From contig JAJCYQ010000015.1 in assembly GCA_029262835.1 (NCBI GenBank), positions 62,001-126,000 of the forward strand: DNA of 64,000 nt, read 5' to 3'. The stretch's first letter is position 1; every line of letters begins with the position of its first letter. The DNA is from Bacteroidota bacterium (GTDB lineage: Bacteria > Bacteroidota > Rhodothermia > Rhodothermales > UBA10348). A program made the position numbers and the translations under genes. This document shows, in pieces, positions 15,139 to 60,793 of the stretch. Below the pieces are notes generated by a model. It was not told where the DNA came from. It made no database searches and saw only the letters and a program-made list of their open reading frames with translations.

Positions 15139-17847
15139 TCAGGCTGGGGGATGCATGACACGGTGCAGCACGGACAACAGGTCCCTTCCGGCGTAGGGTT
15201 TCGGAAGAAACGCGGAAATGCCGGCGCGAAGCAGTCGGTCTTCGGCGTCAGTCGTGAGATAGCCACTCGACATGATGACGGGGACGTCGGCGCCGGCCTG
15301 TCTCAGTGCGACGATGGTACCCAGTCCATCGAGCACGGGCATGGCGGAGTCCAGCAGAATGGCGTCGATGCGGTCGCCCTGGTCCTCCCAGACGCGGAGT
15401 GCATGTTGGCCGTTCTCGGCTTCAAGCGTGGTGTGACCTGCGTGGCGCAGCGCGGCGGTAGCAATTGTCCGAATGGCTGGTTCGTCGTCGACGACGAGGA
15501 CCGTGGCGGAAGTTTGTTCTGGATCTGCTTCCGTGCCGTGACTCATCTCGTCCCCAGCCTCCGCGGAGCTACCCGGTGGGCTGCCCTGGTGCAGCGCGCC
15601 GGACGGATCCCGGGCCGGCAGGTAGATGCGGAATTCGGCCCCCTTTCCGGGCTTGCTCGCTACGTCCACAAACCCGCCATGAGCACGCACAATACTCTGA
15701 ACCGTGGCCAGCCCAAGCCCGGTCCCGGCACCCGGCTCCTTACTCGTGAAAAACGGGTCGAAGATGTTGTCCATGATCTCACGGGCAATGCCGGTACCGG
15801 AATCTTTGACGGTCATCACGACATGCGGGCCGGTGTGCGCCGTCATGTCGCCGCGCGTAAAATGTGTGCGAAGCTCCTCGTTCCGGAGCGAAATCGCCAA
15901 TGTCCCGCCATGCGGCATGGCATCACGGGCGTTGATGCAGAGGTTCATGAGCACCTGGTGCATCTGCGTGGGGTCGGCCGTGATGCGCCAGAGGTCGTCA
16001 GGAACCTGCGTATCGACCGCGATGTCCGGTGGGAATGTTTCAGCCATGAGCCGTTCCATGTCGCGCAAAACAGGCTCAAGACTCATTTCGGACGGGGTGT
16101 CTACGCCGCCACGGGAGAAGGCGAGTACCTGTCTGACGAGGCTTGCTCCCCGCTTGACGCTCGCATCCATACTGTCCAGCATGGCGCGTTTCCGGCCGTC
16201 CTTTTCGCTGGCGCACAGCGCGTCGATGGCGAGCATGATGGGTGTCAGCACGTTGTTCAGGTCGTGGGCGACACCGCCTGCCAGTATGCCAATGCTTTCA
16301 ACACGCTGGGCGCGCAGAAACTGCTGCTCAAGGCGCTTGCGTTCACTTACGTCCTGTTTGACCCCAACGTAGTGGGTGATCGCGCCCTCGGCGTTCGTCA
16401 TGGGTGTAATGGTGAGCTCCTCCGTATATGTGGCGCCGTCCTTGCTGCGGTTTACCACCTCTCCGCTCCAGACGTTACCGGACGCGATGGTCGCCCACAT
16501 CTCCTCGTAGAATGCTGGTGGCTGCAGGCCGCTCTTTATAAGCTCGCCCGGCGTACGTCCGGCGGCCTCTTCCGGTGTAAAACCCGACAGCTCAAAGAAG
16601 GCCTCATTGGCCCATTCTATGACGCCATCCCGGTTGGCTATCACAATGGCGTTGGCCGCAGCGTTCAGTGCGGCGCTCTGCAGTGTGAGTTGGTTCTCAA
16701 TGCGCTTCTTTTCCGTTACGTCGTGAACGAGCGTATAAAGCAATGTCCGTCCGTCGCGCTCGATGGGCCCGGCGAAGACTTCCACGTCCCTGATCTCTCC
16801 GCTCTTGAGCCGGTGTTTGAACTGGAACTCATTCCTTTCCCGTGTCGAGGCGCGGGATATTTCATCGCGTACCTCCGCGCGGGTCATGGTGTTTATTTCG
16901 TGAATGGGCTTGCCGCGGAGCTCCTCGGTCGTCCAACCATAGAACGTGGCGGCCGCCGGATTGGCGTGGACGATTTCTGCCGTCTCGGCGTCAACCAGAA
17001 GCATGACCGTATGATTGTTCTCGAACAGGCTTCGGTAGCGGGATTCGCTTTCCTTCAGCGCGTTCTCCGCCTCCATGGTATCGGTGATATCCTGGATGGC
17101 ACCCTGTACGCGGGTAATGGAGCCTGTGCTGTTTCGCGAAGCTTCGCCAAGCGCACGGACCCATTTCATCCGGCCATCGGCCGCGCGGAATTCAGCACGG
17201 ATGTCGAACGGCGTACCGTCTCTGGCACAGGCTTCGAATGCCTCCCGGATCTGGTCCTGATATGGCTGCACGTAGAACGAAATGAGTTCTTCGACAGCGA
17301 GCGATACGCCCTCATCGACGCCATGGATGCGGCGGGCTTCATCGGTCCACGAATGGCGCATGCTCGGAATATCGATGCTCCAACCTCCCAGAAGACTGAG
17401 TTTGGCGGCCATGGAAATGAACGCCTCGTGGCGGGCCAGCGCCTCCTCGTGTTTCTTCCGCTGCGAGACGTCCTCGACAAAAGCGAACACGCCGTGGAGG
17501 CGGTCGTCGTCGTCATGAAGTGGTCCAGCTGAAATGGTGACGGGTATCAGGGCGCCATTCCTGTGCTCTCGGACGCCCTCGTATCCGGAAAACACGTTTC
17601 GATCCACGATGTTTTTCCAGAACGCCTCGAAGGCTTCGTGCTGGTCGGCCGGAATGATGGGCAGCGGCTTTCCGAGCACGTCGGCGGCCGCCCATCCAAA
17701 CAGCGTTTCCGCGGCGGCATTCCATGATGTAACTCTCCGGTCCAGGTCCATCGTAACAATTGGAATGGGAGAGGAGGCAAGTACGGCGTGCGCGCCTTGT
17801 GGCGTCAGCAGATTCGCTTGGGTGTTCGAAGAGGGGGGGCAGTGCAT
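15139..17847 (-). CDS. Multi-PAS hybrid histidine kinase with receiver domain
   Basis: 902 residues, no membrane segment seen, so probably cytoplasmic. Four PAS/PAC modules (about 20-130, 145-260, 268-380, 392-505), the last with a [10 protein letters not shown] core that could bind a ligand or flavin, but no conserved LOV cysteine is evident. HisKA has G-G-V-A-H-D-L-N-N with phospho-His528; the ATPase has N-boxes at 636-644 and D-S-G-T-G-I-A at 682-688 and G-T-G-L-G-L near 708. A C-terminal receiver (783-900) carries V-D-D-E, acceptor Asp833 and L-P-K-P-Y. No partner regulator gene is adjacent, so the output is unknown. It belongs to the H-D-L-N-N kinase subfamily. Confidence 0.9.
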
Positions 17848-51115: not shown

Positions 51116-51802
51116 ATGAAACGGATCCTGCTTCTGGCGATCCTGGCCGTGCTTTTATGGCCACAAGGCGCTGCCCAGGCCCGCCAGGTCGGCTTATCGG
51201 TCAGCGTGGGCACGCTCGGCCCGGGCGCCAGCCTGGCCTATTCCGTGTCGCCCAAATTTTCCCTGCGAGCGGGCGGTGCCCTGCTCTCGACAACGATCGA
51301 TGAGGACTTCGACGAGGACGACGTTTCGCTCGTCCTCAACGGAGACGCGCGTGTCGGGGCGGTTTCGGCGCTCGCCGACTATCATCCCTTCCGGAGCAGC
51401 TTCCGCCTTAGCGGTGGCCTCCGTTTGAACCTTCTCGATGCCGACGTTTCGGGGCGGTCGAACGATCCGTTCTGCCTCGGCGATGAAGACGCCCAGGGGA
51501 TTTGCCAGACCAAGGAATTCGCCCCGGAAAAAGTAGGTGAGTTCGGCGTCAAGGTAACGTATGCGAATGCGCTGCAACCGTACGCGGGTATTGGATTCGG
51601 CAACCTGGCGCACGGCAACAAGCGTATTACGTTCATGTTCGATGCCGGTGTAATCTATACAGGCAGCCCGGAGATTGAACTGGAAGCGACGGGCCTGCTC
51701 ACGCCCACCGCAGCGCAGAACGAAGCCGTTCTGAACGAAGGGTTCGAATCGTTCGTCCTCTATCCTGTCGTGTCTTTTGGCATTGGCGTTCGGTTCCACT
51801 AG
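51116..51802 (+). CDS. Hypothetical outer-membrane beta-barrel protein
   Basis: 228 residues. Signal peptide ending A-Q-A near 22. The mature part alternates hydrophobic and polar residues in short strands (L-S-V-S-V-G-T-L-G, F-S-L-R-A-G-G-A-L-L-S, F-R-L-S-G-G-L-R-L-N-L-L), and ends V-S-F-G-I-G-V-R-F-H, a barrel ending with terminal aromatic. Reminiscent of OmpA/OmpW-like small barrels; family not recognised. Likely first in a cluster with the lipoprotein 18 bp downstream. Confidence 0.6.
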   Translation: MKRILLLAILAVLLWPQGAAQARQVGLSVSVGTLGPGASLAYSVSPKFSLRAGGALLSTTIDEDFDEDDVSLVLNGDARVGAVSALADYHPFRSSFRLSGGLRLNLLDADVSGRSNDPFCLGDEDAQGICQTKEFAPEKVGEFGVKVTYANALQPYAGIGFGNLAHGNKRITFMFDAGVIYTGSPEIELEATGLLTPTAAQNEAVLNEGFESFVLYPVVSFGIGVRFH

Positions 51803-51820
51803 GATTTTCCCACTACAATC

Positions 51821-53557
51821 ATGAAACGATCAGTTTTTTCGTGGATGGTCCTTGTCGCCGTCCTGTTCGCCCCGGGTTGCGATTTCCAGGCCGTGGAAGA
51901 CGCACTGGATGATTTTGACGTTGTCATCGGCCTCGAGTCGGTCAATACGGTCATCAACGGTACCGTGGTCGATGCCGGAACGGGCAATCTTGTCCCAGCG
52001 CGGCTCACCTTTTCGGGAGATGGGGCCTTCAGCGTCATCGATGCGTTTTCAGATCCGGTCGACGCGATCGATGCCGATGCCGGCATTGTAACGTTCGGCA
52101 TCCAGAACTCGGTTGTGCCATCGCCCGCGTCGCCCGTTGTCATCCGGGTCACGGCGGAAGCGGACGGGTTCCACTCCACGTCCCGTACGCTGAGCATTTC
52201 GGAAACAGGAGACACCAGCTTCAGCCTGACCATGTCGCCCGTCTCGGTCGCGTCCTCCATTCGTGGAACGGAAAGCAGCTTTCAGTCTGGAGTTCAGACA
52301 TCTGGCGGTGTTATTGTGCAGGGAACAGTCATTGAAACTCCGCTGGCTGCCCAGTCCACGGCGCAGGCCACGCTTGACGTGCCGGCAGGGACGACGCCCT
52401 TGACGCGCGCCGGCGCACCGCTTTCGGGCCAATTGACGACCGAGCTGAGGGTATTTGACTCGGCTTCTGGCATGCGGGCACTGCCGTCTGGCGCGCGCTC
52501 GGCGGGTGGCGCGGCGAACGCATCGATCGTGGGAGCTACGTTCTTCCGGATGTCGGATGCCGCCGGGTCTGTGGCCGCAACGTTCCGGGGCCCGCAGGGC
52601 AAAGCTGGTTCCGCGTGCTCCGATGCGGGTGGCACGAGCCTGCGCATTTTGACGCGCGATGCCGCTCTGGTGGCCGCCTTTCCGGCCATGACGGCTCCGA
52701 CGGCGACGGTCGCCGCGTGGACGCCGGCCGATGGTCAGAACAACCAGATTGCCTCGGGAATCCCCGTTACGCTCGAGGGCGACGCCCTGGTAGCGGAGCT
52801 CTGTTTCGGCGGCAGCGCCGCGAACGTGGACGCGTCAGCGCTCGGCGATGTGTCGGATGGCGTTTTCTACACGTATGCGCTCGTTCCAGGCGGCGGTCTG
52901 GTGCTGGAAACCGGCACGCTGGACCATCAGGTGACCATCTCGAATCCATCCGGATCGGCCGTGAATGCCGTGTTCACGCTCGTGGGCCCGGGCCTGCAGG
53001 AGACCAGCGCCCGCCAGGTGGGAGCGGGCTCCACCAGCCTCCGTCTTTCTGAACTTTTCGATACCGCCTCGTCGTTCAGCGTCCTCTCTGGCGCGAGCTT
53101 CATCCTGACCGCCACGCTTCCGACCGGAGCGTTCGAGTCGACGGTCGTTGCTCCGTCTCCACTCAGCGGCGCATCGACCCTTAACCTGCCGTCGTCGGCA
53201 GGGCTCCAGACGTACGCCGTGAGCGCCACGCTCCAGTGCCCCGACCCTGCCAACCAGGAATTCGAAGTGCAGGTTACGACCGAGAGCCTGGATGCCGTGA
53301 GCGCATTTTACCGCGTGGCGGGCAGTGAGGATGCCTGGACACTCGTGCGCAGTTCCGATATTTCCCGCAAGGAGGCAACGTCCTCGTCGATTGCCATCGA
53401 CGCCAGCCTGTCGCTGCTACCGAGCACGAATTACGCGTTTCGGGGCGTGCTTGGAGACGATTCGTCCGAAACTGTCCAGATGACACCGTCTTCGGCGTCG
53501 TCATGGACCGTGACGTTGTCGCCCGACGACGTCGGTCTGACGTGTGAAGCCAAATAG
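51821..53557 (+). CDS. Large exported lipoprotein, unknown function
   Basis: 578 residues. Lipobox F-A-P-G-C (Cys20). N-terminal beta region (about 40-145: N-G-T-V-V-D-A-G-T-G-N-L-V-P-A-R-L-T-F) looks like a carboxypeptidase-regulatory-like beta sandwich. The rest is Ser/Thr/Ala-rich, probably all-beta, with two Cys pairs and no motif I recognise. It probably sits on the outer membrane; co-transcribed with the preceding barrel protein. Confidence 0.6.
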   Translation: MKRSVFSWMVLVAVLFAPGCDFQAVEDALDDFDVVIGLESVNTVINGTVVDAGTGNLVPARLTFSGDGAFSVIDAFSDPVDAIDADAGIVTFGIQNSVVPSPASPVVIRVTAEADGFHSTSRTLSISETGDTSFSLTMSPVSVASSIRGTESSFQSGVQTSGGVIVQGTVIETPLAAQSTAQATLDVPAGTTPLTRAGAPLSGQLTTELRVFDSASGMRALPSGARSAGGAANASIVGATFFRMSDAAGSVAATFRGPQGKAGSACSDAGGTSLRILTRDAALVAAFPAMTAPTATVAAWTPADGQNNQIASGIPVTLEGDALVAELCFGGSAANVDASALGDVSDGVFYTYALVPGGGLVLETGTLDHQVTISNPSGSAVNAVFTLVGPGLQETSARQVGAGSTSLRLSELFDTASSFSVLSGASFILTATLPTGAFESTVVAPSPLSGASTLNLPSSAGLQTYAVSATLQCPDPANQEFEVQVTTESLDAVSAFYRVAGSEDAWTLVRSSDISRKEATSSSIAIDASLSLLPSTNYAFRGVLGDDSSETVQMTPSSASSWTVTLSPDDVGLTCEAK

Positions 53558-53589: not shown

Positions 53590-54834
53590 ATGTCCACTTA
53601 CAAGCTCCGCTGTCTCGGTACGGAAGACCGGATTGAAGACGAGTATACGGTCAGGTACCACGACACGGCGCTGCTCCGGGCGGAGTATGCGGCGCGTACG
53701 CTTACCCCCCGCGACCTGCCGGGGCTCTGGCGCTACACGGACTGGTTGCCGGTCTCGACGCCCGGCCAGCAGGTGGCCGGATCGGTCTGCTTCCGGAGCG
53801 AGGCGCTCGGCGCGCGGCTGGGCCTGACGAATCTCTGGATTTCCTTCCAGGGGTACTGGCCCGAGAAAGGGGGGTACTGCCCGACGACTACGTTCAAGGA
53901 CATGGAGGCGGTAACGACGCTCCGAAGACTTCGCGACCACGGTGTGCCTGGACTCATCTGCGCATCGGCCGGCAATACGGCGCGTGCGTTCGCGCACTTT
54001 GGAGGTCTTGATGGCTATCCGATCCTGCTGGTCGTGGCAGAAAAGCACCTGGGCCGGATCTGGGTCCCGAAAGGCCATTCATCGGACTCGGTAACGCTTA
54101 TAGGTATCGCCGGCGGTGATTACAACGATGCCATCGAAGTAACGGGGAGAATTCTGGAATCTGGTGGATGGCGCCGCGAAGGCGGCGTGCACAACGTGGC
54201 CAGGCGGGATGGGATCGGGTCGCTCATACTGACCGCGACCGAGGCCATTGGCGCGCTGCCCACGCATTACTTCCAGGGAGTCGGCGGCGGTCCAGGTCCG
54301 ATCGGCGTGCATGAAATGGCGCTTCGGGCCATCGATGCCGGCTTCGCCAAGGGCCCTGTTCCAGAGCTCCACCTGTCGCAGAACGATACCTTCTGTCCCA
54401 TCCACGATGCGTGGCAGAAGCGCAGCCGTACGCTGGCACCGCTTGGCGAAACCCTGCATCCGCGTGTGTTTTCTGATTACCTGGTGAACCGTGCCCCGGC
54501 CTGGAGCGTGACGGGCGGGCTGTACGATGTACTGTCCGAGTCCGGTGGCGAGACCTACGCTGTTTCATACGCCGAGGCCGAGGCGGCCGATGCGCTGATC
54601 CGTGACGCGCTGGGCATTGATCCCATGTCGCCGGCGGCCGTGGCCCTTGCGTCGCTCCAGCAGGCCGTGGCGCGTGGACGGGTCGACCCGGACGACTGCA
54701 TTCTGCTGAATATATCTGGCGGCGGGCAGGAGCGGTACCGGGAGGAAGTGGAGACGGTCGCCATTACGCCACACGCCATCACGGACAAGGAAGAAGCTGT
54801 TCGTATTGGGCGGGCGGTGGTGACTGGCGCGTAA
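53590..54834 (+). CDS. Cysteate synthase-like PLP enzyme
   Basis: 414 residues. Fold-type II PLP enzyme near threonine synthase. Key landmarks agree with archaeal cysteate synthase (phosphoserine plus sulfite to cysteate): L-L-R-A-E-Y at 29-34, R-D-L-P-G-L-W-R-Y near 41-49, G-Y-W-P-E-K-G at 88-94, PLP Lys103 in T-F-K-D, S-A-G-N-T at 126-130, G-G-V-H-N-V-A-R-R near 190-205, and N-I-S-G-G-G. In bacteria cysteate feeds sulfonolipid (capnine-type) synthesis. The usual acyltransferase partner is not in the window. Starts 32 bp after the lipoprotein gene. Confidence 0.85.
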   Translation: MSTYKLRCLGTEDRIEDEYTVRYHDTALLRAEYAARTLTPRDLPGLWRYTDWLPVSTPGQQVAGSVCFRSEALGARLGLTNLWISFQGYWPEKGGYCPTTTFKDMEAVTTLRRLRDHGVPGLICASAGNTARAFAHFGGLDGYPILLVVAEKHLGRIWVPKGHSSDSVTLIGIAGGDYNDAIEVTGRILESGGWRREGGVHNVARRDGIGSLILTATEAIGALPTHYFQGVGGGPGPIGVHEMALRAIDAGFAKGPVPELHLSQNDTFCPIHDAWQKRSRTLAPLGETLHPRVFSDYLVNRAPAWSVTGGLYDVLSESGGETYAVSYAEAEAADALIRDALGIDPMSPAAVALASLQQAVARGRVDPDDCILLNISGGGQERYREEVETVAITPHAITDKEEAVRIGRAVVTGA

Positions 54835-54893: not shown

Positions 54894-54973
54894 GGGGCAT
54901 GTGGTATAGATTGCATGATGGCGGGCCGTTGCAGCCTGTCGTCGTCGATCCCCACCACCATTGCACCCTTCCC

Positions 54974-57319
54974 ATGCACTATTTCATGCTTTCCCGTTCT
55001 GTGACGGCGTGGTCGTGCGCCATGCTGACTCTGCTGGCGCTTTCCACTGCTCCAATCTCGTCTGCCCAGGAATTTGGAGCGGCCCTTGCCCTCGCAGATG
55101 GTCAGATTGTGGCTTCTGACCTGGGCAGTGGCGCATCGGCCGGACAGGTGCACGTTTTTTCGCGCGGCGTTGATGGTACATGGTCTTCCGTGGACGTACT
55201 CGCACTCGCCGGCCCGGATGCCGAGGCCGACGGATATGGCAGCGCACTTGCTGCCCACGGAGTAACCCTGGTTGTTGGCGCGGACCGCAGCGGCCTGGTT
55301 GATGTCTATTCAAAGGGCGCTGACGGCTCGTGGACGCGCATACAACGCCTCACGGAGGACGCCCCGAATTTTGGCCGAAGTGTCAGTGTGCATGAGCACA
55401 TGCTCATTGTGGGCGCTGAAAATGCCGCGTTCGGCTACCACCTGACCGACACCGGCGAGTGGGTTCGCGTTCCGGGTCTCGATGCGGGTTCGCTTGCCAA
55501 CGACGCGGACTATGGCGCATCGGTGAGCGTTGAAGGCATGCGGGCACTGGTAGGTGCGCCAGGAGCTGCTGCAGGCGCCGGCGAGGTGCACGGATATTAC
55601 TTCGACGACGGCGCGTGGCACGCCAGTGGCCGGCTGGACCTCCCGGCAGACGGCGAGCGGACGGCTTTTGGCACATCGGTTCTCGTGCATCATGGATATG
55701 CGCTGGCAGGCGCGACCGGCTACGACCGCCGCGTCGGCGCCGTGGGCGTGTACCAGTGGAATGAAGAGAGTAAATCATACAGCTTCTCAACGCGGCTCAC
55801 GCTGCCTGCAGCGAGCGGCAACGAAGGGCTTGGGGCCGCGCTCGCCTACAGTGAGCACGTCGTGTACGTTGGCGCGCCCATGACGAACCGCGCAGAAGGC
55901 GCCGTTCACGCGTTCAGGGCCGAAAATCACATGCAGAGGTGGGTCGCCGAGGCGCCGCTGCCCGCCGAACTCCAGACGCGGAACGGACTGGGCGCGGACA
56001 TTGCCGCGAGCGCCGACCTGCTCGTCGCGAGCGCTCCCCGGTACGACAACGGGGAAGGTGCCGTCATTGTCTACGAGAAAGGAGACGATGGCGCGTGGAT
56101 GCAGTCGGGCATTGTCTATCCGGAAGAAGGCGCGGCCTACGCATCCATAACAGGCAGTGAGGCGCCGTGTGAAGAGGGCACGGCCGCTGGATGGACCTGC
56201 CAGGATGTAGACATGATTTCGTTCCTGTCGGTTGCCGACATCGGCGGCGTGCGCGGTACGCGCGCCAACGACATATGGGGCTGGACAGACCCCGAGACAG
56301 GCCGCGAATATGCCCTTGTGGGACGCACGGACGGTATGGCGTTTGTTGACGTCACCGATCCCGCCATGCCCGTCTATCTCGGCAACATGGACCGTACGCC
56401 CGGAGCGCCCCCGTCCGTCTGGCGCGACATGAAGGTTTACAGGGACCACGTCTTCGTCGTGGCAGACGGAGCAGGAGAGCACGGCATGCAGGTCTTCGAC
56501 CTCGCGCGTCTTCGGAATGTCGAAAATGCCCCCGTCCAGTTCGAGCCGGATGTGCTCTACGACGGCATTGCCAGTTCGCACAACATTGTGATCAACGAGG
56601 AGACCGGCTTCGCCTACGCCGTTGGCAACCGCATGGGCGGCGAGACGTGCGGCGGCGGACTGCACATGATCGACATCAGTACGCCAAAGGAGCCTGCGTT
56701 CGCCGGTTGTTTCTCCCACGAAGGCACCGGCCGCAGCGGAACGGGCACGACGCACGATGCCCAGTGTGTGGTTTACCGTGGCCCGGACAGCGACCATGCA
56801 GGCCAGGAAATCTGCCTTGGATCCAACGAAACGGCGCTTTCCATTGCTGATGTCACGGACAAGAGCAACCCGACAGTGATCTCCATGGCCACCTATCCGG
56901 CCATCGCGTACACGCACCAAGGGTGGCTGACAGAAGATCAGCGATTCTTCTACATCAACGACGAGGGCGATGAGCCGCAGGGGCTGGTTGAAGGCACCCG
57001 CACGCTCATTTTCGATCTCGTCGACCTCGACGACCCGGTATTGATCGGCGAGCACATATCGACCGAGAAGAACACGGATCACAACCTCTACGTGCGCGGC
57101 AACACGATGTACCAGTCGAATTACCAGTCCGGTCTGCGCATTTTTGACATCTCGGATCCTGAGAATCCATTGGAAATCGCATATTTCGACACGGTTCGCA
57201 ACGATGCCACGGGCGGCGGCTCCTGGAGCAACTACCCGTACTTCGAGAGCGGTACCATCGTCGTGACCTCTGGCCGAGAAGGCCTGTTCATGCTCAAAAA
57301 GAAAGAGGTGGATCTGTAG
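54974..57319 (+). CDS. Secreted FG-GAP/LVIVD choice-of-anchor B protein
   Basis: 781 residues from ATG at 54974; a start at 54986 is nearly as good, and a longer frame to 54899 is rejected. Signal peptide ends S-S-A-Q. Residues about 40-390 are FG-GAP-like beta-propeller repeats (F-G-A-A-L-A-L, Y-G-S-A-L-A, F-G-R-S-V-S-V). From about 400 a second propeller of LVIVD repeats (F-V-D-V-T-D-P-A-M-P-V-Y, M-H-M-I-D-I-S-T-P-K-E-P, F-D-I-S-D-P-E-N-P-L) forms the choice-of-anchor B core. Likely extracellular; binding partner unknown. Confidence 0.85.
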   Translation: MHYFMLSRSVTAWSCAMLTLLALSTAPISSAQEFGAALALADGQIVASDLGSGASAGQVHVFSRGVDGTWSSVDVLALAGPDAEADGYGSALAAHGVTLVVGADRSGLVDVYSKGADGSWTRIQRLTEDAPNFGRSVSVHEHMLIVGAENAAFGYHLTDTGEWVRVPGLDAGSLANDADYGASVSVEGMRALVGAPGAAAGAGEVHGYYFDDGAWHASGRLDLPADGERTAFGTSVLVHHGYALAGATGYDRRVGAVGVYQWNEESKSYSFSTRLTLPAASGNEGLGAALAYSEHVVYVGAPMTNRAEGAVHAFRAENHMQRWVAEAPLPAELQTRNGLGADIAASADLLVASAPRYDNGEGAVIVYEKGDDGAWMQSGIVYPEEGAAYASITGSEAPCEEGTAAGWTCQDVDMISFLSVADIGGVRGTRANDIWGWTDPETGREYALVGRTDGMAFVDVTDPAMPVYLGNMDRTPGAPPSVWRDMKVYRDHVFVVADGAGEHGMQVFDLARLRNVENAPVQFEPDVLYDGIASSHNIVINEETGFAYAVGNRMGGETCGGGLHMIDISTPKEPAFAGCFSHEGTGRSGTGTTHDAQCVVYRGPDSDHAGQEICLGSNETALSIADVTDKSNPTVISMATYPAIAYTHQGWLTEDQRFFYINDEGDEPQGLVEGTRTLIFDLVDLDDPVLIGEHISTEKNTDHNLYVRGNTMYQSNYQSGLRIFDISDPENPLEIAYFDTVRNDATGGGSWSNYPYFESGTIVVTSGREGLFMLKKKEVDL

Positions 57320-57365
57320 TGTTTGTAGGTCCCGACCGGTGTTGATTTCGATAGATGCGAAGCAT

Positions 57366-59369
57366 ATGCGCGCTAAGGCCGGTCTGCTCCTGGCTGTCGC
57401 CACGGCTGTGGTACTGGCCGGGTGTGGCCCGCGCGCGGATACGCCGGATGCCGCCTCGGAAGGCCCCGTATTTCGGAATTGGGGAGATGAGGCCACCTAT
57501 GTCGGTCGAGATACCTGTGCCCAGTGCCACCAGCCCCAGTTTGAGTCGTTCGTGCGCTCGCAGATGGGGCGCTCGTGGAAGCATGCGCGCCGCTCGCTGT
57601 CCGACGCCGACTGGGAGAATCCGCCCGTGCTGCGCGATGCGTTCAACGATCTGTATTTCCAACCGTTTGCAGAAGGGGAGAATCTATTTGTACGGGAATT
57701 CCGGCTCGAGGGTCGGGATACCACGCACCTGCGCATCGAACAGATAGACTTCATTGTCGGATCGGGGCACCACACGAACAGCCACATTTATGAGGAGAAC
57801 GGATACCTGTACCAGATTCCTGTTACATGGTACTCCCAGGACGCCAAATGGGGGCTGGCTCCCAAATTCCAGAAGTCTGGCAACAACTACCGATTCAGCC
57901 GCGTCATCACAGATGAATGCATGGCGTGCCACAATGCACCGCCGTCGTTCGTGGAAGGATCGGAGAACCGGTTCGAGTCGGTGCCCTCCGGGATTGGATG
58001 TGAAAACTGCCACGGGCCGGGGTCCATCCACGTGGAGGAGAAACAGGCTGGCATCATCGTGAATGTGGCCGAGGAGATAGATGACTCCATCGTGAACCCG
58101 GGGAAGCTCACACCCGAGCGGCAGCTCGATGTGTGCAAGCGATGCCACATGCAGGGTGTGGCTGTCTTCGAGGAGGGGGAAGGACCGCTCGACTGGCGAC
58201 CTGGGAAAGCCCTCTCCGCGCACGAGCAGGTGTTCTGGCCGCGACAGCCCGACTCGGTATCGACCTTCATCATGGCCTCGCACCCGGACCGGCTCGCCAT
58301 GAGTGCCTGTTTCGAGTCGACGTGGGATGCCTACGAGAAGGCAGGCGGAGCCGCCGCGCTTGGCGGTCCGAACGGCGTACCGCGCCCGCTGACGTGCGTA
58401 ACGTGCCACGATCCGCACGTTCCCATCGAGGAAATGCCCGACGGGCACTATGACATCACGTGTCAGAACTGCCATGAGGGCCCCAAGGCCATAACGACGC
58501 CGTGCACGGAGCCCACGGTCGTGGCCGGCACGAATACCGCATCGTGCGCATCGTGTCATATGCCCCCGTCGGGAAGCTCTGATATCCCGTATATCCAGGT
58601 GACTGACCATTATATCCGTGTGGTTGAGCGCGATGTGCTGCCACCAGAGGGAGTAGAGGAGCAGCGCCGTTTCATTCGTCTGGCCGGGCTCATCGGTAGC
58701 GATTCCGACCATCACCAGGTTGCCGATGGGTTTCTGACCTATTACGAGCAGTTCACCGATCGGCCGGGCATGCTCGATTCAGCGGCGGCGCGCCTTCGGA
58801 AGGCAAAGCGCCAGGTTCCGGCCGCCGACCTGACGAAATCCTGGATCCGACTGTGGCATCTGCAGCAGGACTACGCAGCCACCGTGCGGTACGTCTCCTC
58901 GGATGGGTTTGTGGAGGTGGACGATGCCTGGACCTGGTACCGCATGGCGCAGGCGTTCCGGCAGACGGGGCGCGTAGACGAGGCTGTGGTCTACATGGAG
59001 CGCGCCGTGGACCTCGGCGAGGACCACCTCCGCTTCACCGATCAACTCGGAGCCACGTACGTGGAAGCTGGACGGTATGAAGATGCCGTAAGGGTCCTCT
59101 CGGTCAATATTCAGCGGCAGGGTCGTTTTGTCGAATCATGGATCAACCGCGGGTTTGCGCGGTTGCTGCTCGGGCAGTTCGAAGCGGCAGAAGAAGATTT
59201 CCGTACGGCGCTTTCGCTCGATCCTGACCAGGAGCAGGCCCTCGCCAACCTGGCATCGCTCTACGCGAACACAGACAGGCCGGAGGAGGCTCGTCCGCTC
59301 GTCCGACGCCTGCTCGATCTGTCACCCGGAAACCCCGGCTATCGACAACTCTGGAACGCCCTCCAATAG
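57366..59369 (+). CDS. Heptaheme cytochrome c lipoprotein with TPR repeats
   Basis: 667 residues from ATG at 57366; a GTG at 57339 is possible but gives a poorer signal. Lipobox L-A-G-C (Cys20). Seven CxxCH heme sites start at residues 51 (CAQCH), 185 (CMACH), 212 (CENCH), 257 (CKRCH), 344 (CVTCH), 366 (CQNCH) and 394 (CASCH). The C-terminal third (about 520-660) has tetratricopeptide repeats (A-W-T-W-Y-R-M-A-Q-A-F-R-Q-T-G, A-Y-V-E-A-G-R-Y). Probably an envelope electron-transfer or scaffold protein; electron donor unknown. Confidence 0.88.
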   Translation: MRAKAGLLLAVATAVVLAGCGPRADTPDAASEGPVFRNWGDEATYVGRDTCAQCHQPQFESFVRSQMGRSWKHARRSLSDADWENPPVLRDAFNDLYFQPFAEGENLFVREFRLEGRDTTHLRIEQIDFIVGSGHHTNSHIYEENGYLYQIPVTWYSQDAKWGLAPKFQKSGNNYRFSRVITDECMACHNAPPSFVEGSENRFESVPSGIGCENCHGPGSIHVEEKQAGIIVNVAEEIDDSIVNPGKLTPERQLDVCKRCHMQGVAVFEEGEGPLDWRPGKALSAHEQVFWPRQPDSVSTFIMASHPDRLAMSACFESTWDAYEKAGGAAALGGPNGVPRPLTCVTCHDPHVPIEEMPDGHYDITCQNCHEGPKAITTPCTEPTVVAGTNTASCASCHMPPSGSSDIPYIQVTDHYIRVVERDVLPPEGVEEQRRFIRLAGLIGSDSDHHQVADGFLTYYEQFTDRPGMLDSAAARLRKAKRQVPAADLTKSWIRLWHLQQDYAATVRYVSSDGFVEVDDAWTWYRMAQAFRQTGRVDEAVVYMERAVDLGEDHLRFTDQLGATYVEAGRYEDAVRVLSVNIQRQGRFVESWINRGFARLLLGQFEAAEEDFRTALSLDPDQEQALANLASLYANTDRPEEARPLVRRLLDLSPGNPGYRQLWNALQ

Positions 59370-59380
59370 CTTTTTCATTC

Positions 59381-60793
59381 ATGGAACGCAGAACCAAAAT
59401 TGTGTGCACGCTCGGTCCGGCGTCCGATTCAGAAGACACGATCCGGGCGCTCATCCGGGCTGGTATGGATGTAGCCCGCCTCAACTTCTCGCACGGTACG
59501 CACGAATACCACCGGACACTTATTGAGAACGTACGCGCTGCTTCGAGTGTTGAAGGGCGCCAGGTGGCCATTCTGCAGGACCTGCAGGGGCCGAAGATCC
59601 GGATCGGTGAGGTGGAAGCGGGGGGCATTGATCTCGTCGCCGGCCATTCCATCCGACTTACATCTGAAGTGTTGGCAACGAGTACCTGCGAGGCGCTCCA
59701 CGTGAGTTACGATACACTGGCAGACGACCTGTCGGTGGGAGGGGAGATCCTGATTGATGATGGTAATATCGAACTCAGGGTGGTCGGTCTGGACGGTCGG
59801 GACGTGCTGGCGGAGGTGGTTGTCGGCGGGCGGCTGACCTCGCGCAAGGGTGTCAATCTGCCAAATATCAAAACGTCTACGCCAGCCCTGACGGAAAAAG
59901 ACCTGGCGGACCTGGAGTTTGGTCTGGCCGAAGGTGTGGATATCATCGCCTTGTCGTTTGTGCGCGAGGCATCGGACGTGCGCCAGCTTGCGGACCGCGT
60001 GCGTTCTCGTGGAAGTAACGTACTCATCATTGCCAAGATTGAGAAGCCGGAGGCCGTGGGTTGCATTGACGAAATCCTGGCTACCACCGACGGTATCATG
60101 GTGGCTCGCGGCGACCTGGGCATCGAAATGCGGCTTTCAAAAGTGCCAGGAGCCCAGAAATCCATCATTTCGAAATGCCTCGCGGCGGCCAAGCCGGCGA
60201 TAACGGCAACGCAGATGCTGGAAAGCATGATCGACAATGCCCGTCCGACCCGGGCTGAGGTGTCCGATGTGGCGAACGCCGTCCTGGATGGGTCCGACGC
60301 CGTCATGTTGTCGGGAGAGACCGCCATGGGAGCTTACCCTGTGCGCGCGGTCGAAGTCATGCACAACATCATTGTGGAGACAGAAAAGTCCTATCTGGCG
60401 CTGCACGCGCTCGATCCGACAGGTGACGACGTGGATGTTACCGAGGCGGTTTCGCGCTCGGCGTACTGGATGGCCGCAAAAGTGGGCGCGCGGGCCATTG
60501 CCTGCCTCACGGCGTCGGGCAATACGGCACGGGCCATTGCTCGTCACAGGCCCCACGTGCCGGTCTATGCCTTTACCGATGACCATCGCGTGGTAGGGCA
60601 ATTAGCACTCTCCTGGGGAACAAAGGCATTTTTCATTCCTTTCCAATGCGACACGGATGAGGGCATTACGCTTGTCCACGACATGCTTCGGGACATGGGT
60701 CTGGCCCATGATGGAGATCGCGTCGTGGTTACAGCCGGAATGCCACTTCCAGCCAAGGACCGGACCAATATGGTCCACATCAGCACGCTGTAG
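59381..60793 (+). CDS. pyk: Pyruvate kinase
   Basis: 470 residues, normal bacterial length. Opens R-T-K-I-V-C-T-L-G-P-A-S and L-N-F-S-H-G. Conserved L-Q-D-L-Q-G-P-K-I-R-I-G, catalytic I-A-K-I-E-K-P-E-A, M-V-A-R-G-D-L-G, and A-T-Q-M-L-E-S-M-I-D-N-A-R-P-T-R-A-E follow. Converts PEP and ADP to pyruvate and ATP. Starts 11 bp after the cytochrome gene and is followed 13 bp later by the PorW-like gene, so it may be co-transcribed with envelope genes. Confidence 0.96.
   Translation: MERRTKIVCTLGPASDSEDTIRALIRAGMDVARLNFSHGTHEYHRTLIENVRAASSVEGRQVAILQDLQGPKIRIGEVEAGGIDLVAGHSIRLTSEVLATSTCEALHVSYDTLADDLSVGGEILIDDGNIELRVVGLDGRDVLAEVVVGGRLTSRKGVNLPNIKTSTPALTEKDLADLEFGLAEGVDIIALSFVREASDVRQLADRVRSRGSNVLIIAKIEKPEAVGCIDEILATTDGIMVARGDLGIEMRLSKVPGAQKSIISKCLAAAKPAITATQMLESMIDNARPTRAEVSDVANAVLDGSDAVMLSGETAMGAYPVRAVEVMHNIIVETEKSYLALHALDPTGDDVDVTEAVSRSAYWMAAKVGARAIACLTASGNTARAIARHRPHVPVYAFTDDHRVVGQLALSWGTKAFFIPFQCDTDEGITLVHDMLRDMGLAHDGDRVVVTAGMPLPAKDRTNMVHISTL

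Follow-up and report, generated by a model that had tools for sequence, protein, structure and literature searches.

The gene at positions 53590..54834 (+ strand) of the window, i.e. of the whole stretch of 64,000 nucleotides analysed here, raises two questions: does it encode a cysteate synthase, as originally predicted, and, if so, does it mark its host as a producer of sulfonolipids, or does the cysteate enter some other route?

Family assignment and catalytic residues

The open reading frame starts with ATG and encodes a 414-aa protein of PLP fold-type II. Compared with the curated equivalog profile TIGR03844 (cysteate_syn), the protein scores 416.7 bits (E 8e-125), 92 bits over the cut-off of 324.9, and its residues 4–395 align with positions 1–395 of the 398-position model; Pfam recognizes the general PALP fold alone. 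The best sequence match among solved structures is PDB 9k3c, CapA2 of Alistipes finegoldii, with 254 bits and 37.8% identity, as against at most 41 bits and about 22% identity for the solved threonine synthases. CapA2 is also the top Foldseek match (E 8.5e-32), followed by a threonine synthase (4.8e-16); the AlphaFold model of the protein is of moderate quality (pLDDT 71) and poor over residues 1–62. CapA2 itself passes the TIGR03844 cut-off with 480 bits: the two proteins belong to the same curated family, match over their full length and share the same predicted catalytic residues (PDB 9k3c/9k3o).

The local motifs had been described as archaeal. This is half right: the closest solved relative is bacterial. 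TIGR03844 also includes the cysteate synthase of Methanosarcina acetivorans, which alone among the control genomes exceeds the cut-off. In Alistipes and Odoribacter, the place of CapA is taken by a homologue of the archaeal enzyme; CapA catalyses the same reaction in Capnocytophaga, and the homologue is described as distantly related to it (PMC10191378). Since the Alistipes/Odoribacter homologue has been described and the structure of CapA2 solved, the bacterial enzyme type is already known and hence not new.

The PLP-binding lysine is predicted to be Lys103, within PTTTFKDMEA, and the phosphate loop (SAGNT) to span residues 126–130. As judged from the alignment, Lys103, Asn129, Asn202 and Arg205 are common to threonine synthases too, whereas Glu106, Arg206-Asp207, Tyr227, Gln229, Glu242, Asn265, Trp275, Asn300 and Asn374 are found in all the cysteate synthases compared and not in threonine synthases; the run Arg205-Arg206-Asp207-Gly208 is present in the window protein. 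By analogy with its relatives, O-phospho-L-serine would form an external aldimine with the PLP carried by Lys103, the phosphate would depart to give an aminoacrylate, and sulfite would add to the latter to yield L-cysteate. The phylogeny that had been proposed as a check places the sequences of the lineage, CapA2 and two Streptomyces plasmid enzymes in one clade (support 98/97) apart from threonine synthases, in a tree that lacks methanogen sequences and includes partial sequences and only a small number of threonine synthases.

As the substrates are predicted ones and the identity to the solved CapA2 is just about 38%, the protein could be a beta-replacement enzyme of the same fold that combines O-phosphoserine not with sulfite but with some other nucleophile; we regard this as improbable, given the 92-bit margin over the equivalog cut-off and the conservation, in the window protein, of the residues common to the Alistipes and Streptomyces enzymes. 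Despite the shared PLP fold type and the weak matches to threonine-synthase models (68 bits for the best one, far below its cut-off of 303), it is scarcely credible that the gene encodes a threonine synthase or an O-phosphohomoserine-using relative: the low identity to the solved threonine synthases, the tree, the curated cut-off and the presence of a separate ThrC encoded elsewhere in the genome (244 bits) all argue to the contrary. The prediction of a cysteate synthase rather than a threonine synthase is thus borne out by the family profile, the CapA2 match, the tree and the separate ThrC, and the sequence data support the assignment of 53590..54834 to a known enzyme family, as a CapA2-type cysteate synthase of predicted activity and substrates.

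Gene neighbourhood and distribution

Ten distinct homologues (61–88% identity) were found in relatives, and up to 13 other genomes of the order carry a protein over the cut-off; the open reading frame is therefore a conserved gene rather than a chance one. A recent foreign origin was considered and rejected: its GC (64.1) and GC3 (74.0) values resemble those of its neighbours.

In the genus, the gene is part of a co-directional run. The run starts at 51116..51802 (+), which encodes a 228-aa probable outer-membrane beta-barrel protein (weak CarO-type match, below the cut-off), conserved in the genus and in position in three relatives. It continues with a 578-aa probable lipoprotein (51821..53557, +), recognized by a signal-like N-terminal stretch ending in Cys; 32 bp separate this gene, also conserved in the genus, from the cysteate synthase gene that follows, and its product has no Pfam or NCBIfam family match. 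Downstream lies a gene for a beta-propeller surface protein of the FG-GAP/choice-of-anchor B type (54899..57319, +; TIGR04312, 434 bits; FG-GAP_2), whose true start is probably at 54986 (MLSRSV..., signal-like), followed by a gene for a 676-aa multihaem cytochrome that combines TPRs with seven CXXCH haem motifs (57339..59369, +; Pfam Cytochrome_C7, Paired_CXXCH_1 and TPR). The conserved block ends with a pyruvate kinase-like gene (59381..60793, +; named from sequence alone), a housekeeping neighbour that is outside any sulfonate pathway. The cysteate synthase gene therefore does stand among surface-protein genes, as noted originally.

A choice-of-anchor B gene occurs near the cysteate synthase gene in three genera (its own and two others) and is absent nearby in another genus of the family. 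A functional link between the two was considered, but it is weakened by two observations: most related genomes contain about ten paralogues of the choice-of-anchor family, and G017 keeps the choice-of-anchor B, cytochrome and pyruvate-kinase genes side by side although no cysteate synthase was found in it. For the same reasons, the neighbours reveal no pathway, and no partner gene for a sulfonolipid or sulfonate pathway was found in the neighbourhood. Note that the FG-GAP/choice-of-anchor B family, with about ten copies in most related genomes (in the source genome, 54899–57319 and nine more places), constitutes an unusual surface-protein expansion in its own right.

Cysteate synthase was found in 13 of 100 genomes, the source genome included, nearly all from the same family. 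Across the phylum, 8/392 genomes carry it, all of them from that family, and 148/392 carry a SulA-type acyltransferase; none of the 392 carries both. Chance alone predicts three co-occurrences, with a hypergeometric probability of 0.022 for none; this value treats as separate events eight carriers that form one clade, so the zero overlap does not argue strongly for avoidance. In Alistipes, both genes are known to be present. Since CapA2 passes TIGR03844, Alistipes-type cysteate synthases would have been counted if sampled. A. finegoldii has SulA as well and makes sulfonolipid, whereas a SulA-type enzyme was not found in the source genome. In this bacterial family, cysteate synthase is encoded by an accessory gene that stands alone and that only some of the species possess.

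Lys-type acyltransferases do exist elsewhere in the order, in other families (L089, L091); L089 scores 397 and 377 bits against the solved CapB and SulA, respectively. In other families of the order, we also observed SulA-type acyltransferases fused C-terminally to a fatty-acyl-AMP ligase (L117 1–2769, +; L118 1459–4149, −; also in G033, G027 and G066), in open frames of 1113–1210 aa with an acyl-carrier domain in between, as recognized by eye. Such a fusion would pass the acyl-ACP directly to the condensing enzyme; a limited check of the sulfonolipid literature turned up no description of it. In G003, two copies of the cysteate synthase gene lie at 15829–17001 and 216570–217742 (L068, L080) of the 233,570-bp contig JAJCYR010000091.1; because these are mirror positions, the contig has the appearance of a palindrome created during assembly, and the second copy is probably spurious.

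Acyltransferases and the fate of cysteate

The source assembly (G000, 3.45 Mb) is 97.6% complete, which leaves room for about 2.4% of missing sequence. Two alpha-oxoamine synthases (AOS) were found in the whole assembly: KBL, whose gene neighbours a tdh-like one, and an Spt-like enzyme encoded at C16:15048–16190. The latter scores 403 bits against the serine palmitoyltransferase of Sphingobacterium multivorum versus 227 against SulA, and has Ala where SulA has Lys281, a residue that marks the known cysteate acyltransferases and has been proposed to separate them from serine palmitoyltransferases (PMC9304779). The nearest candidate in the source genome therefore shares its AOS fold with the SulA/CapB cysteate acyltransferase (PDB 7u7h, 28eh) but is a serine palmitoyltransferase by score and has Ala in place of Lys281. 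No SulA/CapB-type acyltransferase (Lys281) was found in the 97.6%-complete assembly or in the other cysteate synthase-positive genomes of the order, and an order-specific acyltransferase query gave no match at 1e-105 in G000. The expected acyltransferase is thus missing, as originally stated, from the window and, as searched, from the whole assembly, where the suggested search yields only KBL and the Ala-type Spt; the idea that the pathway genes lie elsewhere in the genome fails for the known SulA/CapB acyltransferase. The 3-ketocapnine reductase genes of producers are scattered (PMC11211663), and short-chain dehydrogenases are too numerous in the genome for one of them to be assigned this role.

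Two further observations were made on the AOS enzymes and their surroundings. The stop of the Spt gene is overlapped by a gene (L003 338–1474, −) encoding a 378-aa protein that has no Pfam or NCBIfam match and whose position suggests an N-acyltransferase for ceramide. A third alpha-oxoamine synthase, with Ser at the Lys281 position and 41% identity to Spt, occurs in genus g12, perhaps Rhodothermus (L085–L088).

We consider it very likely that the gene encodes a stand-alone, CapA2-type L-cysteate synthase whose product enters a step other than that of SulA/CapB, either an Ala-type Spt or a non-lipid use. That cysteate is consumed by an undescribed route, through a cysteate-accepting Ala-type Spt or into a non-lipid sulfonate product, is a proposal to which we give slightly less than an even chance.

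A non-lipid use (taurine by decarboxylation, a peptide or secondary metabolite, an anionic solute or a sulfite sink) is a serious contender, which we believe a little less readily than we doubt it. It would fit the existence of cysteate synthase-positive genomes without acyltransferase, and PLP decarboxylases of PF00282 are present. However, PF00282 enzymes are present equally in cysteate synthase-negative relatives, and a dedicated decarboxylase leading to taurine was rejected because of this lack of correlation; the two PF00282 enzymes examined are closer to aromatic amino acid or tryptophan decarboxylases than to cysteine sulfinate decarboxylase. The coenzyme M/sulfopyruvate route, through which M. 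acetivorans uses its cysteate, was rejected as well: the best score in G000 for ComE, the beta subunit of sulfopyruvate decarboxylase, is 28.5 bits, against a TIGR03846 cut-off of 221.5, which makes coenzyme M synthesis through ComE unlikely in the source genome. Also against a non-lipid use, the cysteate synthase gene has no dedicated partner gene alongside and no peptide synthetase gene was seen in the neighbourhoods read.

By contrast, a peptide synthetase gene does adjoin that of the TIGR03844 enzyme (415 bits) of Streptomyces sp. NBC_01340, an arrangement that makes it likely that the family has non-lipid uses elsewhere. On the plasmid of this strain (L115 1–14709), the cysteate synthase gene lies 15 bp downstream of a gene for a 3987-aa nonribosomal peptide synthetase with a terminal reductase; a gene for a DpgA-like type III PKS comes next. 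The locus is possibly a cluster for a cysteate-containing peptide.

The other route, in which cysteate would be turned into sulfonolipid by an order-wide Ala-type Spt that replaces SulA, appears to us doubtful, albeit worth considering. Its main support comes from Salinibacter. Genome G038 contains four rhodopsin genes, which fits Salinibacter ruber, strain M31 of which has four rhodopsins (PMC12613981); S. ruber, a known producer of sulfonolipids, contains halocapnines (PMC5167729), the synthesis of which is stated as undefined (PMC6508672). As AOS enzymes, G038 has only KBL and an Ala-type Spt that is 69% identical to that of the source genome, and the Lys281 rule may therefore fail in this order. 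On the other hand, no TIGR03844 enzyme was found in G038 at 1e-60, SulA(K281A) is about 1000-fold less active (PMC9304779), and the Spt of the source genome scores far closer to serine palmitoyltransferase. Moreover, the Ala-type Spt is present in 40/40 genomes of the order searched, whether or not they have a cysteate synthase, with Ala always found where the position was read, and no convincing Spt residue tracks the presence of cysteate synthase in the family (the best candidate, an N-terminal position, shows a difference of 0.51).

Cysteate synthase as a marker

Cysteate synthase and the acyltransferase are jointly used for mapping sulfonolipid producers. The original view that the gene marks sulfonolipid synthesis finds no support: SulA/CapB was not found in the genome or in its cysteate synthase-positive relatives, and the two enzymes never coincide among the 392 genomes. 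Because this genome and its relatives have no known acyltransferase, it is not supported that cysteate synthase alone marks sulfonolipid. Indeed, cysteate synthase is uncoupled from the committing acyltransferase throughout one bacterial family, and for this reason a survey by cysteate synthase alone would miscall producers. In addition, G038, with only the Ala-type Spt and KBL, makes the Lys281 rule directly testable: if the Ala-type Spt accepts cysteate, this might also explain the halocapnine of Salinibacter, where no SulA was found.
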